From positions 1 to 30,582 of IMG/VR virus record IMGVR_UViG_3300046474_000188: a stretch of 30,582 nt of DNA. One strand, 5' to 3'. The position numbers and the translations under genes were made by a program. Under the pieces are notes generated by a model that worked only from the letters and a program-made list of their open reading frames with translations, made no database searches and was not told where the DNA came from. Every line of letters starts with the position of its first letter. The first letter of the stretch is position 1. Shown one piece after another: positions 4,001-26,931 of this stretch. Source of the DNA: a virus.

Positions 4001-5311
4001 TCAGTTCCCCTTTATTGTAGGCGTCTTTTTATCCATCCACTCAGCCAGCACTTCAATCGGATACCCCTCTCCGTACCCCGCACCAACCCCGGGGGTCACA
4101 TGGCCGAGGAGGGCATCCATGATCTCCAGCGGGCACTGAACAGCCCTCAGTTGATCCTTGACGGTGTGTCGTAAAGAGTGTACCCCGAGCTTGGTCCCCT
4201 TGAGGCCCTCTCGGCTCCGTATCCACTTAACTAAGGCAGCGCTGACGGGTTCCGAGGAGGCGTACTGTGGGTAGATTCGGACTGCGTCACCCGAGCGGTT
4301 TTTGGCGTCCCTAAGGCACTGCCACGCCCTATCGGTGAGCGGAATCCTCCGGGTGCTCCCCGGGGTCTTGAGGGTTCTCCAAGGGTGCGGCTTCAGCGTG
4401 ATGTGCGGGTGTTTCCCACCGTGGATGTCCCCCTTGGCAAGCCCGACGATCTCTGCTAGGCGTGCTCCGGTTTCCGCAACGACCGTGAGGATCGACCGAA
4501 GGGTGTCCTGACCGTGGACCTCGATGGCAAGCTCCAACGACCTGAACTGAGCCTCGGTAAAAACTTCCCGGTCGACAGAATCCTTGCCGTAGTCAGGTAT
4601 TTCTAACTTGGCGAAGACGTTCTCGATTTTCAGTTCGTTCTCACGGATTGCCCGGGAGACTGCAGCCTTGATCGGGGCGATGTAGCGCTGAACGGTGGCC
4701 GTGCTCATGTCCCTGTTCAGCATCCACTTAATGAACCCGTTGGCATCCTGACGCCTCACGGTCCTTAGTTCCTTGTCGGTCCCGAGGTACTCGATCAGAT
4801 ACCTGAAGGCACGCTCACACCGCGTATCGTCGCTAGGACGGGCTGCTGTGTATTGTGCAAGGCAATCCCCCAACGTGGTCCCGAAGGAGCCTTTGAGGAT
4901 CGCCACGGCAGCTTCCTCGACCTTCGACAACTTCGGCTTCTCTTCGAGGATGTCGTGGAATCTGAAGAGCGGACCATCGGCTGGCTGTACAGGATCGACG
5001 CCGTGTTCACGTAACATGGACAGCGCTTTTTCTTGAACAATCATGCGCTCTTTGCCGGGAGCAGAGGAACGCAAAAAACCCCACTCTTTATCCGTCTGAC
5101 GTATCAGTTGGGCAATAAGCGGGGCGGCTTGCAACGGGTCTGTTGTCTTGAGACTTTGAACAACGTGTGTCTTCCCGAGGACCCCGATCAAATCGAGCGG
5201 GACCTTTCTGCGGAAGTAGAGGACCGGTGATCCGGGCTTCTTCCAACAGCAGGGTATCTTCATCGGTGGTAACTCCGGTGATAACTCCGGTGGTAACGAT
5301 CCGGTGTCCAC
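4001..5311 (-). CDS. int: Tyrosine recombinase/integrase 1
   Basis: About 436 residues, the usual length for a phage integrase with arm-binding, core-binding and catalytic domains. The catalytic domain shows the full set: Arg in TGARLAEI, Lys in the LKTPGSTRRIPL strand, HSLRH, LLGHV and the Tyr nucleophile in the GYGEGY segment near the C-terminus. The longest start is GTG at 5311 with AAGGAG ten bases upstream. An ATG at 5263 with GGAG nine bases upstream is an alternative giving 420 residues. The N-terminal codons of the long form overlap a tandem repeat array that probably forms attP. It would catalyse site-specific integration and, with a helper, excision. Confidence 0.92.
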   Translation of the reverse strand: MDTGSLPPELSPELPPMKIPCCWKKPGSPVLYFRRKVPLDLIGVLGKTHVVQSLKTTDPLQAAPLIAQLIRQTDKEWGFLRSSAPGKERMIVQEKALSMLREHGVDPVQPADGPLFRFHDILEEKPKLSKVEEAAVAILKGSFGTTLGDCLAQYTAARPSDDTRCERAFRYLIEYLGTDKELRTVRRQDANGFIKWMLNRDMSTATVQRYIAPIKAAVSRAIRENELKIENVFAKLEIPDYGKDSVDREVFTEAQFRSLELAIEVHGQDTLRSILTVVAETGARLAEIVGLAKGDIHGGKHPHITLKPHPWRTLKTPGSTRRIPLTDRAWQCLRDAKNRSGDAVRIYPQYASSEPVSAALVKWIRSREGLKGTKLGVHSLRHTVKDQLRAVQCPLEIMDALLGHVTPGVGAGYGEGYPIEVLAEWMDKKTPTIKGN

Positions 5312-6197: not shown

Positions 6198-6995
6198 TTA
6201 CCGCACTGCGGCAAGAAGTTCATCATCCGAAATGTGAGCGTAGCGTAGCGTCGTCTCGATCTTCCGATGACCGAGGAGCTTCTGGACCACTGCGATGTTC
6301 TTCGTCTTAGCCAGCGTGCGGGTTGCGGCGGTGTGGCGCAGGGAATGCAGGACGAAATCGTCGTCCCCTTGGAGACCCATGTGTTCCTTCAGACGATTCC
6401 AAACGATGCGGATTTGGCCGACCGTCAGGTGCTCGAATGTCCCTCCGGCCAGCGCAGCTTTCGCACGGTCGTTCAGGGGAATCGAGCGGGCCTTCTTCGT
6501 CTTGTTCTTCCAGAGGCGAATCCAGTCGCCGTCGATATTCTTCGCTTCGAGTTCCATCAGTTCCCCTCGGCGCATCCCGGTCTCGATCAGGACGGTCAGG
6601 AACCGAGCGATCTCCGTCTCGTTCCACGCGGTCAACATCAGGAACATCGTCTTCTCTTCTTCCGGCGACAACCAGCGGACCCGGTCGTTGTCCTCGGAGC
6701 GGTAGGTGATCTTAGGCATCTTGCTGATCCACTCGCGGTCCAGCGCGTACTTGAGGATCGTATGGACGTTCGTCAGCTTGCGGTTGATCGTAGCGTCAGC
6801 AAGGCGGTTGTCCATATCTTGGACAAAGGCATCGATGTGGATCGTCTTCACTTCAGCCAGCGGAAGATCACCGACCACCTTGATGAACGCCTCGACGTTG
6901 GTGATCGCGGTCGAGCAGTAAGCCTTACCAGCCCACAGGGGCCGCTTGGCAACCATCAGGAGTTCGTTCAGGGTCGTGGGGGTCTTGATCTTCAT
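6198..6995 (-). CDS. Tyrosine recombinase/integrase 2
   Basis: 265 residues from the ATG at 6995, which has GAGG seven bases upstream; a 40-residue longer frame lacks a ribosome site. An N-terminal SAM-like core-binding domain (residues 1-100) is followed by the catalytic domain with Arg in ETGMRRGELM, Lys in NKTKKARSIPL, HSLRHT, LLGHRKIETTLRYAH with the Tyr nucleophile near the end. It is compact, like XerC/D or short phage integrases, and lacks the extra arm-binding domain of integrase 1. It has its own promoter and is isolated from the upstream operon by a terminator. Its role could be excision, a second attachment site or dimer resolution. Confidence 0.88.
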   Translation of the reverse strand: MKIKTPTTLNELLMVAKRPLWAGKAYCSTAITNVEAFIKVVGDLPLAEVKTIHIDAFVQDMDNRLADATINRKLTNVHTILKYALDREWISKMPKITYRSEDNDRVRWLSPEEEKTMFLMLTAWNETEIARFLTVLIETGMRRGELMELEAKNIDGDWIRLWKNKTKKARSIPLNDRAKAALAGGTFEHLTVGQIRIVWNRLKEHMGLQGDDDFVLHSLRHTAATRTLAKTKNIAVVQKLLGHRKIETTLRYAHISDDELLAAVR

Positions 6996-7019
6996 ATGTG
7001 CCTCGCTGTGTGAGACTCT

Positions 7020-7048
7020 ATTATGTAAGACAATGCAGCCCTGTGCAA
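7020..7048 (-). promoter_or_regulatory. Host-type promoter for integrase 2
   Basis: On the - strand: TTGCAC (7043-7048), 17-nt spacer, CATAAT (7020-7025), with TCTC starting four bases after the -10 as in the two right-hand promoters. It lies 25 bp before the integrase 2 start and just after a terminator. Confidence 0.55.
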
Positions 7049-7060
7049 GAACTATCTTTC

Positions 7061-7089
7061 GAAAAAATACCCCTCCGGTTAGGGAGAGG
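7061..7089 (-). terminator. Rho-independent terminator of the replication operon
   Basis: On the - strand CCTCTCC (7083-7089) pairs with GGAGGGG (7070-7076) with one G-T pair, followed by TATTTTTT. It lies 7 bp after the stop of the last operon gene. Confidence 0.8.
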
Positions 7090-7095
7090 TAATTG

Positions 7096-7332
7096 TTACT
7101 CGGTGTGCTCGGCATATCCAGCGAAGCCGTTGGCCTTGTTCGTCAGCCAGAACCCCTCGGCATTCTTGCGCATCCGCTTGGCGATCATCTGCGTAGGCTT
7201 GAGGCATCTGCGGGGGTCCAAGGCGCTCGTGTAGTCACCCGTACGGTGCTGCTCGAAGGCTGCGGTGCTGTTGAAATACTCGTTGCAGCCGGGGCACTGG
7301 TTGCGGTCCCCGGAGAGTTTGCCATCTTTCAT
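7096..7332 (-). CDS. Small FDXHR-type zinc-binding protein
   Basis: 78 residues. The start at 7332 overlaps the upstream stop (ATGA). Residues 10-35 carry CPGCNEYFNSTAAFEQHRTG, a C2H2-like pattern; the phage family I recall reads CxxCxxxF...FDxHR. The rest has RRCL and KNAEGFWLTN, also typical of that family. A nucleic-acid or protein-interaction role is likely but unproven. It is the last gene of the operon and is followed by the terminator. Confidence 0.7.
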   Translation of the reverse strand: MKDGKLSGDRNQCPGCNEYFNSTAAFEQHRTGDYTSALDPRRCLKPTQMIAKRMRKNAEGFWLTNKANGFAGYAEHTE

Positions 7333-19560: not shown

Positions 19561-19579
19561 CGTTGTGTTGTGTTGTGCA
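19561..19579 (-). promoter_or_regulatory. TGCACAACACAACACA element, copy B
   Basis: The - strand reads TGCACAACACAACACAACG, 8 bp after the RNA polymerase stop and just before the UUCG hairpin. Two further copies (22585 and 26118) share 15-16 of 16 bases. It is a candidate promoter of the phage polymerase for the replication genes, or an operator. Confidence 0.4.
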
Positions 19580-19586
19580 GAAAAAA

Positions 19587-22100
19587 CTACGAGAAGCAGT
19601 ACTCCGAGTCGAGGACTACCTTGAGGTCAAGGTTTCCACGAGCGGGCACTTGGATCACTTCGAGATTCTTCAGGAGTGCCAGCGTATCTTGCGCAGCATC
19701 GGGAGACTCAGCACCCATCTTTGCGGTCAGGGCACGCTTCGCGCCATCCAAAAGGTCCTGCAGGGGGTCATTCGCTTCGTACATTTCAACGAACGTCTCA
19801 CGAACAATCTTCGAGAACCGCGCCATGTTGTTAGGCGTCGATGCGAACGAGTCGTGGATCAGCAGGAAGTCCGTGATTCCTTCTTCGACCGACTTGAGCA
19901 CCACGCTATGAAGGTGGGCTGCGTCAAGCGAGTGGATGAAGTTCGGGGAGATACCGGTCTTCTGCTCGTTCTTGTTGATCTGCTTCGTGTACGCCTCGAA
20001 CAGCTTCGGCTTGTACTTCTTCGGGACGCGGAGTTCGCTATCCCAAACCATCGTCGTGACTTGCTTGTAGGTGGCCTCGTAGTACGTGGAGATAACCGGG
20101 AAGCCGGTCGGGCTGACCCAACACGAGGGCAGGTTAGCGTCCGACAGTTCCTTCGAGATTGCACGGAAGAACGTCTTGCACGCTTCAGCACCCGGTACGG
20201 TTTCCTTGATTGCCGCGAAGTTGATCTTGGCGAGGTAAGCGCATGCGGCACGGCGAATCGTAGCGTCGTCACCAAAGTGCTTCTTGGCGGATTCGCTGCG
20301 CAGTTCGTCTTCCCACAATTGCTTCGACATACCACCAGCTTCCGAGCCGTAGCCGTAAGTCATGGTGTTGCGCTTCGTGATCGAGCGGTCGATGCCGTTG
20401 TCCTTGTATGTGCTCCACAGTTCAGCGATGCTTCCGACTTCAACATCACCGAAGTCTTTCGCAACGACAGCAGCGGAAATCTGAGCGACAGCCTTGTACA
20501 CATCCTTCGGGGTCTCCGAGGGAATCAGGTTGACGTGCTTGCCACCTTCTTCGTCCCGCAGGATTGCCGAGAAGTGCTGCAGACCCGAGCACGAACCATC
20601 GATAGCGACCGGGATACGGCACACATACGTCGTAGGGGCCTTCAGAGCCTCTACAAGGGCTTCGGCTGCTGCCATGAAGCAGAAGGGACTATCGGCCATC
20701 GACCAGACGTCTACGGTGCTCTTAGGGGCTGCTACGACGCTGCGGATCAAGTCCATGTTGTCGTCAGTCCACTGCACACGCTGTTCGCGGGGTGCCTTGT
20801 CCATACCAACTCCCTTGACCTTGAAGCCACCGGTCGTCGCTACGTGCCACTTCAGCCACCAGAGACCATCTTCGGTCAGGACTTCGCCGCGAGCCAAGTT
20901 GAACATGGCCTTGCAGTAATCCGAACGTTGATGATTGAAGCTAGGGCGGGCATACACTCGCGCACGAAAATCAAGGTAGTGCGGCTGGTAGAACTCAGGC
21001 TCGTTGACCAGTTCCTCCGCAGCAGCAAGGGCGCTGTTGATCGCAATACGCTTCGCCGTAACCGCCTTGTTGAAGCGGTAGTCGGCTGCGCACTTCTTCT
21101 TGTCCTCAGAGTTCCAATCGATGCTGCGGGGCGTGCCCGGCATCACATCACCGTCCTTGCCAATCTCGATCTTCTTGCGGTTGCAATGCTTGACGAGGTT
21201 GAACACGAAGCGGTTGATCTGGAACGGGACTTCTTGAATCGCGTTCAGCGCACGGATGAACGGAGCATCAGCAGCGATAGCCGCGTTGATGGCCTCACGT
21301 TGAGCCTTGTTCGCGTGGTTGATCAGCGGGTTCTTACGGGCCACTCGGGGATCGAGGTAAGCACCACGGTCGAACGAGTCCCACTTCGCAGGGGGCACCA
21401 GCATCGCGCCAAACTCGGGGTGATCGTATTGGATCGCTTCAGTCGTCGACCCGATGAACTCAGCAGCCACTTCAGAGAACGTGAGGCACAGGGTCGGCCA
21501 CTTGTCCTCTTCACCCTTGTGTTCAAAGGTGGCGAACATGTCAGTCGCAGCCATCACCATCATGACCAGACCAGCAGCGAAGCCAGCATTGATATCCGCC
21601 TCTTCACCGAAGATGGGGAACCGCTTCTGAGCTTCCATACCGGCGATCATGCGCTCTTGCTTCGAGCGGGGCAGGGCCTTGAGTGCCGCCTTGTATTCCT
21701 TACTGTCTTCCTTCTGCCACGCGGCCTCGGCGACCATCTGGCGAACGTCGAAGCCCAACGCCGTGTAAAGGTCTGACATGGAAGCACGGGCAGGATCGTC
21801 CGTGTTTGCCAACGCAGCCCTACGGGTCATGTGGGTCAGCAGGAGCATCGCAAGGACGTCCAGCTCGATCATTTCCAGAGCCGGGAAGTACGCGGGCTTC
21901 TGACGCGGAGCGGATGCCAGTTCATTGCGCATCGCTTCGAGGGTCTTCGGCATCGCTGAATCGATCAGGCGGCGACCAGCTTGGCTGACCTCACCATTCT
22001 CGATAGCACGCTCTTCGTTCTTCAGGTGACGCAGACGGCCACCTTCGTACATTGCTTCTTCGCGTTCCAGATTCGTGCCGTAGTTCAGTGCGATGTCCAT
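19587..22100 (-). CDS. Single-subunit DNA-dependent RNA polymerase (T7 type)
   Basis: 837 residues from the ATG at 22100 (GGAGAG upstream; a 42-residue longer frame runs through the promoter). Catalytic features of T7 RNAP are all present: DGSCSGLQHFSAIL with Asp501 (T7 Asp537), SITKRNTMTYGYGS with Lys576 and Tyr584 (T7 Lys631, Tyr639), SPNFIHSLDAAHLH and LLIHDSFAS with Asp750 (T7 Asp812). The C-terminus is YCFS rather than FAFA. It is made first from a host promoter and then transcribes later genes. Its promoter specificity is not known. Confidence 0.95.
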   Translation of the reverse strand: MDIALNYGTNLEREEAMYEGGRLRHLKNEERAIENGEVSQAGRRLIDSAMPKTLEAMRNELASAPRQKPAYFPALEMIELDVLAMLLLTHMTRRAALANTDDPARASMSDLYTALGFDVRQMVAEAAWQKEDSKEYKAALKALPRSKQERMIAGMEAQKRFPIFGEEADINAGFAAGLVMMVMAATDMFATFEHKGEEDKWPTLCLTFSEVAAEFIGSTTEAIQYDHPEFGAMLVPPAKWDSFDRGAYLDPRVARKNPLINHANKAQREAINAAIAADAPFIRALNAIQEVPFQINRFVFNLVKHCNRKKIEIGKDGDVMPGTPRSIDWNSEDKKKCAADYRFNKAVTAKRIAINSALAAAEELVNEPEFYQPHYLDFRARVYARPSFNHQRSDYCKAMFNLARGEVLTEDGLWWLKWHVATTGGFKVKGVGMDKAPREQRVQWTDDNMDLIRSVVAAPKSTVDVWSMADSPFCFMAAAEALVEALKAPTTYVCRIPVAIDGSCSGLQHFSAILRDEEGGKHVNLIPSETPKDVYKAVAQISAAVVAKDFGDVEVGSIAELWSTYKDNGIDRSITKRNTMTYGYGSEAGGMSKQLWEDELRSESAKKHFGDDATIRRAACAYLAKINFAAIKETVPGAEACKTFFRAISKELSDANLPSCWVSPTGFPVISTYYEATYKQVTTMVWDSELRVPKKYKPKLFEAYTKQINKNEQKTGISPNFIHSLDAAHLHSVVLKSVEEGITDFLLIHDSFASTPNNMARFSKIVRETFVEMYEANDPLQDLLDGAKRALTAKMGAESPDAAQDTLALLKNLEVIQVPARGNLDLKVVLDSEYCFS

Positions 22101-22138
22101 GTTGCTCTCCGTGATCGGTTCAGTGCGTTGAGGAACGT

Positions 22139-22167
22139 ATATTAGCTCCTTTCGCTGGACAGTGCAA
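22139..22167 (-). promoter_or_regulatory. Host-type promoter for the RNA polymerase gene
   Basis: On the - strand: TTGCAC (22162-22167), 17-nt spacer, TAATAT (22139-22144), 39 bp before the start codon. The -35 is the right arm of an inverted repeat GTGCAA-N7-TTGCAC (22162-22180), which could be a repressor site. Confidence 0.6.
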
Positions 22168-22220
22168 CACAGGATTGCACAAAAAAATTTGGACGGGGTG
22201 TTTGCCCTGTCTCTGTTAGG

Positions 22221-22359
22221 AGGCAATCTCGGTAGCTATTTGATTGTCAAGGCTTTTTGCTAGAGATTCTCTAGGATTTGGGACCCCCGAGACCTCCTGA
22301 GACCCCTGCGGGGCTATCGACCAGTTTCCTTTAAAATCAATGGGTTACCGAGATTGCCT
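22221..22359. repeat. 14-bp perfect inverted repeat with 111-bp spacer
   Basis: AGGCAATCTCGGTA at 22221-22234 and its exact reverse complement at 22346-22359. The spacer contains a 15-bp palindrome (22260-22274) and a C4-TGC-G4 hairpin (near 22303-22313), so the whole could fold as a branched structure in DNA or RNA. Confidence 0.7.
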
Positions 22360-22383
22360 TCTTATAGAGAGATGGGCAACCTT

Positions 22384-22584: not shown

Positions 22585-22600
22585 TGCACAACACAACCCA
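22585..22600 (+). promoter_or_regulatory. TGCACAACACAACCCA element, copy A, before the RNR gene
   Basis: Lies 27 bp before the RNR start codon on the + strand; one base differs from the two - strand copies. TACTTT follows at 22603 and could serve as a -10 (TTTTTG-17-TACTTT), so this may be a host-type or a phage-polymerase promoter. Confidence 0.4.
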
Positions 22601-22627
22601 ACATACTTTGAGAGAGTATCCAGAGAG

Positions 22628-24604
22628 ATGAACGCACCTTCACTGCGGGCGCAGCTAGTAGCTCGCCGCACATACCAAAGACCCTTGGATTCCGAGGGCA
22701 CCGTATTTGAAACATGGGAAGACATGGTCGGTCGAGTAATCGGTCACCAGATGTGGCTGTGGGATCGCGCACAGCTTGGTGGTATCGGTCAGGACGAACT
22801 GTACGAACTGAATGAGCTTCAGACGCTGATGTTGGAGCGTAAGGTTCTGATGAGTGGTCGTACGCTGTGGCTCGGGGGCACTTCGGTTGCCAAGAAGCGC
22901 GAAGCTTCGCAGTTCAATTGTTCGTTCACCCAAGTCGAGACCGTACAGGACATCGTCGATGTTATCTGGTTACTGCTTCAGGGCTGTGGCGTGGGCTTTA
23001 GTCCCATCGTCGGTCAGCTTACGGGCTTCCAGAAGCGCATCCCCACAATCGAGATCATCCGCTCCAACCGCACCGAGAAGGGTGGTCGTGAGCACAACGT
23101 AGAGACGTTTGAAAATGGCGTGTGGACAATCGCAGTCGGTGACTCTGCAGAAGCTTGGGCAAAAGCCTTGGGCAAACTGGTCGCCCATAGACACAACGCC
23201 AGTAAATTTGTATTCGATGCCTCGGCTATACGCCCCGCTGGTGAGAGACTTGCAGGATATGGATGGATCAGCAGCGGAGACGATGCACTCGTCAAAGCCG
23301 TCGAAGCCATCTTCGCAATCCTCAATCGACGAGCAGGTTCGCTCCTCACTCGCATCGACATCCTCGACATCGTCAATTGGCTGGGCACGATCCTGTCCTC
23401 GCGTCGCAGTGCTGAGATTGCTCTTTTTGAGTACGGTGCAGACGAATGGCAAGAGTTCGCAGTAGCCAAGCGCAACTGGTGGGAAGACAACGTGCAACGC
23501 GCACAGTCGAACAACTCCCTCCTGTTCAAGCAGAAGCCTTCGCGGGCTGAACTGCAGCACATCTTCGACCTGATGGTTGAGGCTGGTGGTAGTGAGCCGG
23601 GTTTCATCAACGGTGAAGCTGCGACCCGTAGGGCACCTTGGTTCAAGGGTGTCAATCCGTGTGCTGAGATTCTGCTCGGCAACAAATCATTCTGTAACCT
23701 GACCGAAGTAGACGTGTCCAAGTTCAAGGGCGACTCTGCTGGCCTTCGTCGTGCAATCGAGCTTGCTGCTCGTGCGAACTATCGACAGACCTGCGTTGAC
23801 CTGAACGATGGCGTGCTCCAAGAGGCATGGCACCGTAACAACGACTTCCTTCGCCTCTGCGGTATCGGGCTGACGGGTGTCGCTGGTCGTCCTGACATGC
23901 GCTCGTATGAGTATGAAGAGCTTCGCCGTACTGCACATGCTGCAGCCTATGGCATGGCCGACGAACTCGGTACGCCGCGCCCGAAGAACATCACAACGAT
24001 CAAGCCCTCGGGCACCCTGTCGAAAGTGATGGACGCCGCTGGTGAAGGTATGCACAAGCCCATGGGCCGCTACATCTTCAACTCGGTCAACTTCGGCAAA
24101 CACGATCCGCTCGTGAAGCTGTGTCGTGAGGCTGGTTACAAGGTCATCCCGAATCCCTCGGACCCCGAAGCATTCCTGATCACTCTTCCTGTTGAAGCGA
24201 AGGGCGTTGAGTTCTCCAAGTTCGTCAAGGACGGCCGAGAGCTTGAAGTCAATCTCGAATCAGCGATTGATCAGCTTGAGCGTTACAAGATGCTCATGCA
24301 GTCGTGGTGTGACCAGAACGTTAGCGCAACGATTTCCTATGGTGTGGACGAAGTTCCTGCCATCGTGGATTGGTTGCTGACGAACTGGGATACCTACGTT
24401 GGTGTGTCGTTCCTGTTCCGTACGGACCCGACGAAGACCGCAAAGGACCTCGGTTACCTCTACCTTCCGCAGCAGCCTGTGACGAAGGAAGAGTACGAAG
24501 CATATGTCGCCACACTGCAGCCGATCGATCTCAACAGCACCGCGCAAGACTTGGACGCTGAACTGATGGACGAATGTGTGAACGGGAGTTGCCCGATTCG
24601 GTAG
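22628..24604 (+). CDS. nrdJ: Adenosylcobalamin-dependent (class II) ribonucleotide reductase
   Basis: 658 residues; ribosome site GAGAGAG is close to the ATG. It reduces ribonucleotides to deoxyribonucleotides using a B12-derived radical. It resembles the monomeric Lactobacillus-type enzyme: Cys in SQFNCSFTQ (one redox Cys), the finger loop NPCAEILLGNKSFCNLTEV with the radical Cys, Glu and second redox Cys, and a C-terminal CVNGSCPIR pair that relays electrons from thioredoxin or glutaredoxin. It is a little shorter than the 739-residue L. leichmannii enzyme. It is the only + strand gene between the replication operon and the right-hand - strand operons. Confidence 0.93.
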   Translation: MNAPSLRAQLVARRTYQRPLDSEGTVFETWEDMVGRVIGHQMWLWDRAQLGGIGQDELYELNELQTLMLERKVLMSGRTLWLGGTSVAKKREASQFNCSFTQVETVQDIVDVIWLLLQGCGVGFSPIVGQLTGFQKRIPTIEIIRSNRTEKGGREHNVETFENGVWTIAVGDSAEAWAKALGKLVAHRHNASKFVFDASAIRPAGERLAGYGWISSGDDALVKAVEAIFAILNRRAGSLLTRIDILDIVNWLGTILSSRRSAEIALFEYGADEWQEFAVAKRNWWEDNVQRAQSNNSLLFKQKPSRAELQHIFDLMVEAGGSEPGFINGEAATRRAPWFKGVNPCAEILLGNKSFCNLTEVDVSKFKGDSAGLRRAIELAARANYRQTCVDLNDGVLQEAWHRNNDFLRLCGIGLTGVAGRPDMRSYEYEELRRTAHAAAYGMADELGTPRPKNITTIKPSGTLSKVMDAAGEGMHKPMGRYIFNSVNFGKHDPLVKLCREAGYKVIPNPSDPEAFLITLPVEAKGVEFSKFVKDGRELEVNLESAIDQLERYKMLMQSWCDQNVSATISYGVDEVPAIVDWLLTNWDTYVGVSFLFRTDPTKTAKDLGYLYLPQQPVTKEEYEAYVATLQPIDLNSTAQDLDAELMDECVNGSCPIR

Positions 24605-25128
24605 TAACAGAGCAGTATCCGGTGACTCGCCCTCAGAAGCGCGAAGACAACCCGGCACTTCAGGTGGGAAGCCTGATCCTTAGTGTGCGCCTTGGCGAGG
24701 GCGCTTTAGTTCTCGCTTTGTTCCGCTCTCACTCCGTAGCGGTTATCCACGGGGTTCCAAATTCAAAAGAGCATGAGGGGCTGAACCTCTCCACGTATCT
24801 CCAACGTGCCGAACAATGGGAGCCATTCGGGTTCGAGGACCGACCATACAAAAGAGTACCGCAAGCTCATGCGTTAATGAGCGGAGTTGGCCTCCCTCGG
24901 CGTAGGAACGAGGCACAGCGTGAAGTTGGAGCAGTTACGAGGAACGAAAGCACGGAGTCTAATTAACCACCGGCCTGATACGTGACCCCGACGAGGTACG
25001 CACTACGTAGCAAACTGCTCGTCCGTATATAGCATGGGAACCTCGCGACTTGACATCGCAATGGGGCTGATACCGCTCGGCTAATGAGTAGCGCAACACC
25101 CTCGAAATCCTAAGTGCAACGCTTAGGT
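24605..25128 (+). ncRNA. Hairpin-rich 3' region of the RNR transcript, candidate structured RNA
   Basis: No convincing gene. Perfect local inverted repeats follow one another: GCGCC/GGCGC (24687-24704), CCGCT/AGCGG (24723-24742), CACGT/ACGTG (24792-24808), CGAACAATGG paired with CCATT-cgg-GTTCG (24810-24835, ten pairs with a 3-nt bulge), GCTCAT/ATGAGC (24865-24882), CCTCG/CGAGG (24895-24913) and CCTAAG/CTTAGG (25109-25127). The region lies between the RNR stop and a terminator. It could be a structured RNA or a long leader/trailer; a 130-codon open frame from 24574 to 24966 is the alternative. Confidence 0.35.
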
Positions 25129-25156
25129 CTCAAACCTCTTGTTGAGGGGTTTTGAG
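25129..25156 (+). terminator. Terminator-like hairpin downstream of the RNR gene
   Basis: CTCAAA-CCTC-TTGTT-GAGG-GGT-TTTGAG forms a stem with a small bulge; GGGGTTTTG resembles the T7-type terminator tail. The following T-run is short, so strength is uncertain. Confidence 0.5.
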
Positions 25157-25310
25157 CGTGCTCTCTGAGGAGGGTGAAAGGTCTCTCTCTTTCTCTCTCC
25201 CTTACTCCCTTTCCAGAGGGCACACTCAAAACACATCGAGCTTCACCAACGAGTAAAGGCCGGAATCCGAAAATTCCAGCCACAAAACGATTCTCCAAGA
25301 TTTTTGGATT

Positions 25311-26117: not shown

Positions 26118-26133
26118 TGTGTTGTGTTGTGCA
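26118..26133 (-). promoter_or_regulatory. TGCACAACACAACACA element, copy C
   Basis: On the - strand it is followed by GGGTAGAACTATG, that is, a purine-rich start region, ribosome site and start codon of the 38-aa gene. It lies 7 bp after the stop of the GP88-like gene. The layout fits a promoter read by the phage polymerase or a regulated host start. Confidence 0.45.
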
Positions 26134-26140
26134 GATTCGA

Positions 26141-26902
26141 TTAAACAGCGTGGATTGCAATAACCTTGCGTGCGACGTCGACAACAAAGCCTGACATATC
26201 AAACTTTGCCTGACCCTTGGCATAAAGTGCCACAACGACGCCTTGGGGTTCCATATGACGGATATCGCTATCGTCTCCGCCGATGCATTCCATGCCCTCA
26301 AACTCTTCGGGAATGTCGGCAGCATTGCGGAATACGACAGCCAAGCGCATGCCGTTTGCCTTCGCAATGTCCACGTACTTCCGATACGACGCGACGCCTG
26401 AGAATGAGTAGGTCAAATCATAGTTGGCGGGAAGGTTGCGCCGATTCGCAATTTTGGTGTAATCATAGAATTGAACGTCAGGGAACACGGACATAACGTT
26501 AGGATATTCCACGCCGTCAACGGTCAACGAAACATTTTCCCATTTGATATCTGACGTTCCATTCAGACGCACAAGCGGAGTGAGACCATTCTTAGCGGCT
26601 TTTTTCACAAGCTTGCGAATGTTGCCAACAAGGGTATCCATGAATTCAACGCGTGCTTCGAAAAAGTATTTCGCCTTGTTGATCCGGGCAATTTGCACAT
26701 TCGACATAGCACCACGTCCGGCAGTGTAAAGGCATGCTGTCTTGCATTGTGCAATTTCAGCCATGGCGCAAGTGTTGTAACCCGATACGTCAGCCGGTGC
26801 CATGTACAGAATGCCCGTCATGAAACCGTATTCCTGACCCTTGACGGTCTTTGCGTTCGTGTCGATGGACAGAAGGTTTTTCGATTTAGCTTGCATGGTC
26901 AT
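26141..26902 (-). CDS. GP88-like phage protein
   Basis: About 253 residues from the ATG at 26902. Conserved features: LLSIDTNAKTVKGQEYGFMT, ILYMAPAD, a Cys cluster CAMAEIAQCKTACLYTAGRG, ARINKAKYFFEARVEFM, LVRLNGTSDIKWE, FPDVQFYDYTKIANR and YDLTYSFSG. I recognise these from the gene product 88 family of mycobacteriophages and many plasmids. Its biochemical role is unknown to me; the three to four cysteines suggest metal or cluster binding. It has its own TTGCAC promoter and follows the 49-aa gene. Confidence 0.75.
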   Translation of the reverse strand: MTMQAKSKNLLSIDTNAKTVKGQEYGFMTGILYMAPADVSGYNTCAMAEIAQCKTACLYTAGRGAMSNVQIARINKAKYFFEARVEFMDTLVGNIRKLVKKAAKNGLTPLVRLNGTSDIKWENVSLTVDGVEYPNVMSVFPDVQFYDYTKIANRRNLPANYDLTYSFSGVASYRKYVDIAKANGMRLAVVFRNAADIPEEFEGMECIGGDDSDIRHMEPQGVVVALYAKGQAKFDMSGFVVDVARKVIAIHAV

Positions 26903-26931
26903 TCTCACTTGGTTCGTTTGGGCGCTGCGTT

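Follow-up and report, generated by a model that had tools for sequence, protein, structure and literature searches.

GOLLD RNA is a closed multimeric RNA cage, and ROOL RNA is a phage RNA that lies near tRNA islands and has no known function. Phage T4 carries two small stable RNAs of unknown role, RNAs C and D, inside its tRNA array. GOLLD has been described as joining a constant 3' region to a variable 5' region, with tRNAs sometimes present in the linker (PMC12286853). In Staphylococcus aureus, the icaR mRNA carries a 3' UTR motif that pairs with that mRNA's ribosome-binding region; translation is blocked and a site for RNase III is formed (PMC3868564).

We analysed a single virus record from IMG/VR, 30,582 bases long (the window), in which a sequence-only reading had placed a possible structured non-coding RNA behind the ribonucleotide reductase (RNR) gene. 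Comparison with relatives indicates that a conserved structured RNA very probably lies on the plus strand at 24609-25232. Like GOLLD (RF02032), the element is phage-encoded and folded, has tRNAs near or inside it, and combines a constant 3' region with a variable 5' region (PMC12286853). Unlike GOLLD, its constant part is about 120 nt long, ends in a hairpin with a (UC)n loop and is tied to an RNR unit. It resembles ROOL (RF03087) in being a phage RNA near tRNA islands but lacks the fixed 570-nt fold. By analogy, the element may function like GOLLD or ROOL. Its likeness to T4 RNAs C and D is one of description only, and it differs from them in its covarying modules and in having an RNR gene in its unit. 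With the icaR mRNA it shares a 3' UTR pyrimidine motif complementary to its own ribosome-binding region and a proposed RNase III substrate (PMC3868564), although the phage motif is a (UC)n loop, mostly of 18-20 nt, on a stem of 24-34 bp and its pairing is predicted.

The RNR gene and the element lie in a divergent unit

Family profiles place a T7-type single-subunit RNA polymerase gene at 19587-22226 on the minus strand, which also encodes DNA polymerase, primase-helicase, ThyX, a 5'-3' exonuclease and two integrases. The class II RNR gene (NrdJ; 22628-24604, plus strand; PHROG 367, E 4.7e-164) is the first and only clear gene of its unit in the window. Because it stands alone on the plus strand beside minus-strand genes, it belongs to a unit of its own that is divergent from the RNA polymerase operon. 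Eight relatives have the same layout, with the element's unit divergent from that operon. From the right, a GP88-like gene (26141-26908, family profiles) runs towards the RNR unit, and the element sits between the two convergent units.

The motif TGCACAACACA precedes the RNR unit (22585-22595, plus strand). Two further exact copies, at 19569-19579 and 26123-26133 on the minus strand, also stand ahead of units, and a copy with one mismatch lies at 4849 on the minus strand; 0.57 copies are expected in the window. TGCACAACACA is likely the phage's own promoter or part of one. Directly 5' of the RNR ATG is a purine leader, GAGAGAGTATCCAGAGAG (22610-22627, plus strand), and a GAGAGAG leader is common to the RNR-bearing relatives read.

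A long inverted repeat lies where the RNA polymerase gene of the window begins (22200-22252 / 22328-22380; 53 nt, 75%), with a counterpart in the relative L037 (2032-2075 / 2178-2221; 44 nt, 93%). Whether it is a divergent promoter or an origin we raise as a question only. The two integrase genes (4001-5311 and 6198-7115, both minus strand), found alongside the T7-type RNA polymerase, indicate a temperate lifestyle.

Hairpin density is weak evidence of structure

The element had been proposed from a density of hairpins at 24605-25156 that appeared higher than in other non-coding parts of the window. This stretch contains nine perfect hairpins that do not overlap and have stems of 5 bp or more, compared with 3.19 +/- 1.6 in dinucleotide shuffles, and 0 of 200 shuffles reach nine. 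The remaining stretches of 540-550 nt in the window contain one to seven such hairpins; the seven occur in a coding stretch. When stems of at least 6 bp are counted, the stretch is ordinary (two hairpins versus 0.86 in shuffles, equalled by 38 of 200), and its folding energy as a whole is that of shuffled sequence (-181.7 versus -185.1 +/- 6.6 kcal/mol, z +0.52). Hairpins are thus dense at the shorter stem length but not at the longer one, and density alone is weak evidence. The evidence for structure is conservation across relatives.

Helices of E1, P4 and P6 are kept while their sequence changes

We searched the viral contigs of IMG/VR with RNR, with NrdA and with DNA patterns, which yielded about 20 distinct relatives. 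In these, the unit's last gene is followed by a module named E1, a slot and a 3' domain that runs from CTAATGAG..CCCGAAA through the hairpins P4, P5 and P6. Matches to the element lie at the equivalent place in 13 of the 18 contigs searched, a single strong one in each.

E1 (24609-24679, plus strand) stands directly behind the RNR stop and has the consensus CCGG-UGAC-[P2]-AGACAA-CCCGG, followed by P3 with the loop UGGGANG. In the window, it comprises P1 (24619-24622/24652-24655), P2 (24627-24630/24641-24644) and the hairpin P3 (24660-24676, loop UGGGAAG), all on the plus strand, and covariation supports E1. The covariance model matches it with 80 bits, the window sequence being among those from which the model was built. 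Across 13 distinct sequences, standard pairs occupy 97% of pair cells and both sides have changed in 10 of 13 pairs (39 cells), a score reached by 0 of 500 shuffles. The signal collapses when the partner is slid by one base, and covariation is also seen when the alignment is fitted to the model. One of the patterns used to fetch E1 had P1 fixed, with P2 and P3 left free; the RNR scan supplied the CTAG form of P1.

The 3' domain begins with a conserved single-strand motif, C2 (CTAATGAG...CCCTCGAAA; 25080-25107, plus strand), which is kept in E1-bearing relatives and lies 5' of P4. P4 (25109-25127, plus strand), a hairpin with a YGCAAYG loop, is paired in 99% of cells and changed on both sides in 23, and again 0 of 500 shuffles reach its score. 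The pattern that fetched P4 was partly structural; L008, L014, L037, L080 and L157 entered by other routes.

P6 (25149-25232, plus strand) is a long hairpin that folds in 16 of 16 sequences, with 24-34 pairs and a conserved mismatch in the stem, over a pyrimidine-rich loop of 14-20 nt in most. In the window it measures 84 nt, with 29 pairs and -40.3 kcal/mol, and its loop TCTCTCTCTTTCTCTCTC (25181-25201, plus strand) carries a (CT)n motif that is unique in the window, where 0.15 are expected. The outer arms have 33 cells changed on both sides versus 7.8 in shuffles, a number that 0 of 1000 shuffles reach. P6 is found in each of the 16 sequences, whether E1 accompanies it or not, and is thus the constant piece. 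The shuffle tests ignore the kinship of the sequences, so their figures are no probabilities, and the argument lies in effect size and the slid controls.

About 40 G-U pairs are kept on the plus strand in E1 and P4, including the invariant U-G pair that closes P3. These wobble pairs would be mismatches on the opposite strand, which argues that E1 and P4 are read as RNA from the plus strand. The minus strand of P6 yields folds of similar quality, and the orientation therefore cannot be read from P6 by itself.

P5 (25129-25156, plus strand) had been read as a terminator near 25129-25158. We reject an intrinsic terminator because no U-run follows either P5 or P6. The bounds first given for the element, 24605-25156, do enclose hairpins, but 25156 falls just within the first arm of P6 and the element runs on to about 25232. 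The central proposal, a structured non-coding RNA, is upheld by compensatory changes in relatives: the helices of E1, P4 and P6 are kept while their sequence changes.

Such an RNA competes with a protein-coding gene in the frame 24574-24966, which in the window is open for 130 codons. This frame has no Pfam match. In L009, the nearest relative, a tRNA-Tyr takes the place of its first part, and the remainder is near-identical with a 7-nt deletion. A frame broken in this way is not a gene, and we give the coding explanation next to no chance.

Downstream of P6 in L080, L040/L045 and L014, we observed tRNA-like sequences in which the D and T arms are present and the anticodon arms are shrunken (for example CCACCTCGGGTGG), on which ARAGORN makes no call.

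The region between E1 and the 3' domain is a slot for different inserts

The slot (24682-24768, plus strand) is variable, holding a tRNA in relatives and hairpins in the window; one of these hairpins, CCGTAGCGGTTATCCACGG (24734-24752, plus strand), is common to the window and L028. The slot contains tRNA-Trp in L005 and L020, tRNA-Tyr in L015, a tRNA-like gene whose middle is enlarged (35 bits) in L045, and an HNH gene in L028. A tRNA also stands at the slot position in L009 (tRNA-Tyr) and L157 (tRNA-Trp), where E1 is not recognisable. The tRNA ends abut the next module. In L007, L026, L027 and L031 the slot is empty, so that E1 meets the 3' domain within about 95 nt, and the minimal forms (L031, L007) run from E1 to P4 in only about 120 nt. 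Across the sequences compared, these data show that the slot accepts tRNAs, HNH genes or further folded modules.

One such slot module, E2, has the S1 stem variants GCAGAG/CTCTGC, TGTGG/CCACA and ACAGG/CCTGT and a putative loop pseudoknot of 3-4 bp. A pattern scan of viral contigs matched E2 at this locus only.

Further folds follow on the plus strand of the window. A branched module (24769-24882), near-identical in L009, is predicted either to pair GCATGAG (24771-24777) with CTCATGC (24866-24872) or to form a competing hairpin at 24865-24882. The M module (24934-24986), GTTACG-AGGAACGAA-hairpin-TGATA-CGTGAC, counts like E2 as a slot module and is common to the window, L006 and L157, in which the internal-loop letters are identical and a change in the outer stem preserves pairing. 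The hairpin GCGA-CTTGACA-TCGC (25045-25059) has the stem GCGT/ACGC in L009, a compensatory change.

Between RNR and E1, HNH genes (named by eye from translation) are present in L005, L015, L019 and L020. Homing-type HNH genes reach right up to RNA elements in L005 and L028, and their stop codons lie inside them: the TGA of CCGGTGAC in E1 of L005 (near 2458), and a TAA within P4 of L028 (reverse, near 1183).

The element is independent of any one RNR type

The element's unit carries a class II RNR in the window and NrdB-NrdA in other phages; in one phage it lacks an RNR. In L026, L027, L040 and L045, the RNA lies behind NrdA, a class I RNR that is non-homologous to NrdJ. In the RNR-less unit of L037, about 600 nt separate the RNA polymerase gene from E1 and contain no long correctly oriented open frame. 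L008 and L079-L082 keep the P4-P6 part and lack E1. By these sequence comparisons, the element is shown to be independent of any one RNR type. The earlier suggestion that the RNA regulates the RNR describes a possible role, but one that must accommodate the same RNA behind the non-homologous NrdA and, in L037, without a preceding RNR.

Comparison with known RNA families

Rfam, at gathering and relaxed thresholds, placed no family in the element and found only tRNAs in some relatives. The GOLLD model matched 0 of 9 contigs at E<=10, and relaxed Rfam scans for it were silent too. The ROOL model had no match in 9 contigs, but the ROOL control was equally silent; the gathering scan of the window was silent as well. 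The idea of a new class therefore holds in so far as Rfam and the GOLLD model are unmatched, whereas the ROOL test is weak. Among isolate phages, blastn found no relative of the element, returning tRNA-Trp matches and short chance matches, and the E1 pattern gave only apparent chance matches in bacterial genomes.

Three known ribozyme or riboswitch classes were considered and rejected. For a group I intron, the order P4-P5-P6-P7-P3-P8 was weighed by eye; P3 and P7 covary unconvincingly, and RF00028 is unmatched at the locus. For a decayed hammerhead in C2 (CTAATGAG...CGAAA), the essential core G of CUGAUGA is an A, and no Rfam hammerhead matches. A cobalamin riboswitch was considered because NrdJ is a cobalamin-using RNR; it has no Rfam match, the position is downstream and the same RNA lies behind NrdA. 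Elsewhere, contig G006, that of L014, has a weak group I intron match at 44994-45118 on the minus strand (21.6 bits, E 5.4e-5, below the cut-off).

Predicted pairing of the P6 loop with the RNR leader

In every RNR-bearing relative read, a GAGAGAG leader precedes the unit's first gene, NrdJ or NrdB alike, and often does so twice. The predicted duplex between the P6 loop and the RNR leader in the window has -22.3 kcal/mol, and 0 of 3795 other same-strand windows are as good. The leader is also the best same-strand partner of the loop in L009 (0/2031) and L045 (0/1709), and overall it is the best same-strand site in 3 of the 10 phages ranked. It is near the top in L007, L014 and L020. In L006, L015 and L019 it does not stand out (rank about 50-80 of 2219), and in L008 it does not do so by energy. 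A perfect loop-leader complement of 7-9 nt, the type of motif described for icaR, occurs in 12 of 12 phages tested; in L008, with its shorter pyrimidine run, there is an exact 9-nt match, CGAGAGAGC/GCTCTCTCG. GAGAGA also stands before the starts of other genes in the window, and L037 retains P6 with neither an RNR nor a GAGAGAG leader ahead of E1. Since any pyrimidine loop will pair with a purine leader, and GAGAGA is in use ahead of other phage genes, regulation by pairing of the (UC)n loop with the leader is a tentative and rather doubtful proposal.

The best explanation of the whole, which is quite possibly correct but which we do not hold with confidence, is that the element is the structured 3' part of a divergent unit that would regulate itself through the P6 loop and the leader. 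The unit would start in the divergent promoter region beside the phage RNA polymerase gene, and the gene and its structured tail would be made as one RNA. RNase P would excise the slot tRNAs, and P6 would end and stabilise the RNA. The (UC)n loop could then pair with GAGAGAG, the ribosome-binding leader at the 5' end, either within one RNA molecule or between two copies; less of the first gene (RNR) would be translated, and the duplex may serve as an RNase III substrate, like the icaR 3' UTR. E1 and the middle modules would be accessory folded domains. The boldest reading, which we think unlikely, is a new, modular phage RNA class with a tRNA plug-in slot, its own divergent unit and a (UC)n hairpin that controls the unit's nucleotide-metabolism gene via GAGAGAG.

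Alternatively, the processed RNA from E1 through the modules to P6 could act alone, as a folded particle or in trans as is thought for GOLLD and ROOL, with the RNR as a passenger. This would account for L037, whose RNA lies in the same kind of divergent unit without an RNR, for RNR types being swapped while the RNA stays, and for a layout like that of GOLLD as described (PMC12286853). It fits poorly with unmatched GOLLD and ROOL models (the ROOL control being silent), with minimal forms of such short length (L031, L007) and with phages that have only P4-P6 (L008, L080), and we consider it improbable. It is also rather unlikely, to our mind, that the 3' domain is a passive transcript end, with P4-P6 as a processing and termination site (an RNase III stem and a C/U-rich loop for Rho entry) and E1 and the inserts as the tail of a tRNA operon with a hot spot of HNH-gene and RNA-module insertion. 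Such an end would leave the conserved letters of the E1 and P4 loops unexplained, and the absent U-tract means that it would not be an intrinsic terminator, even though the location between convergent units, the long P6 stem with its conserved mismatch and (UC)n loop, the presence of P6 in 16/16 sequences whether or not E1 is there, and the tRNA ends that adjoin the next module directly all agree with it.

The element's own long inverted repeat, and a locus that is a hot spot of swapping, might instead reflect a DNA-level element such as a cruciform or a replication, packaging or recombination site. We regard this as very improbable, because many G-U pairs are kept on the plus strand, the loops are conserved in single-strand fashion and tRNAs occupy the same array in the same orientation.

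If the proposed loop-leader pairing is true, the locus would be an example, in a phage, of deoxynucleotide supply under 5'-3' UTR self-regulation. The element adds a covariation-supported RNA family that is absent from Rfam, and its natural variant series (minimal, tRNA-bearing, HNH-bearing and RNR-less) is a test set for the role of folded RNAs in phage tRNA islands.

A possible hammerhead-like ribozyme in the convergent region of relatives

An intergenic stretch of the convergent region matches a Type II hammerhead-like ribozyme in L005 (4950-5012, minus strand), L003 (4454-4513, minus strand) and L028 (5769-5832, plus strand), with 27.7-32.1 bits against an Rfam cut-off of 37. Its sequence was not found in the window by blastn. 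The core of CGAAAC, GUC and CUGAUGA is complete in L005 and L028, and L003 has CUGAAGA. Similar sequence is present in L006, L007, L014, L019, L020, L031 and L077.
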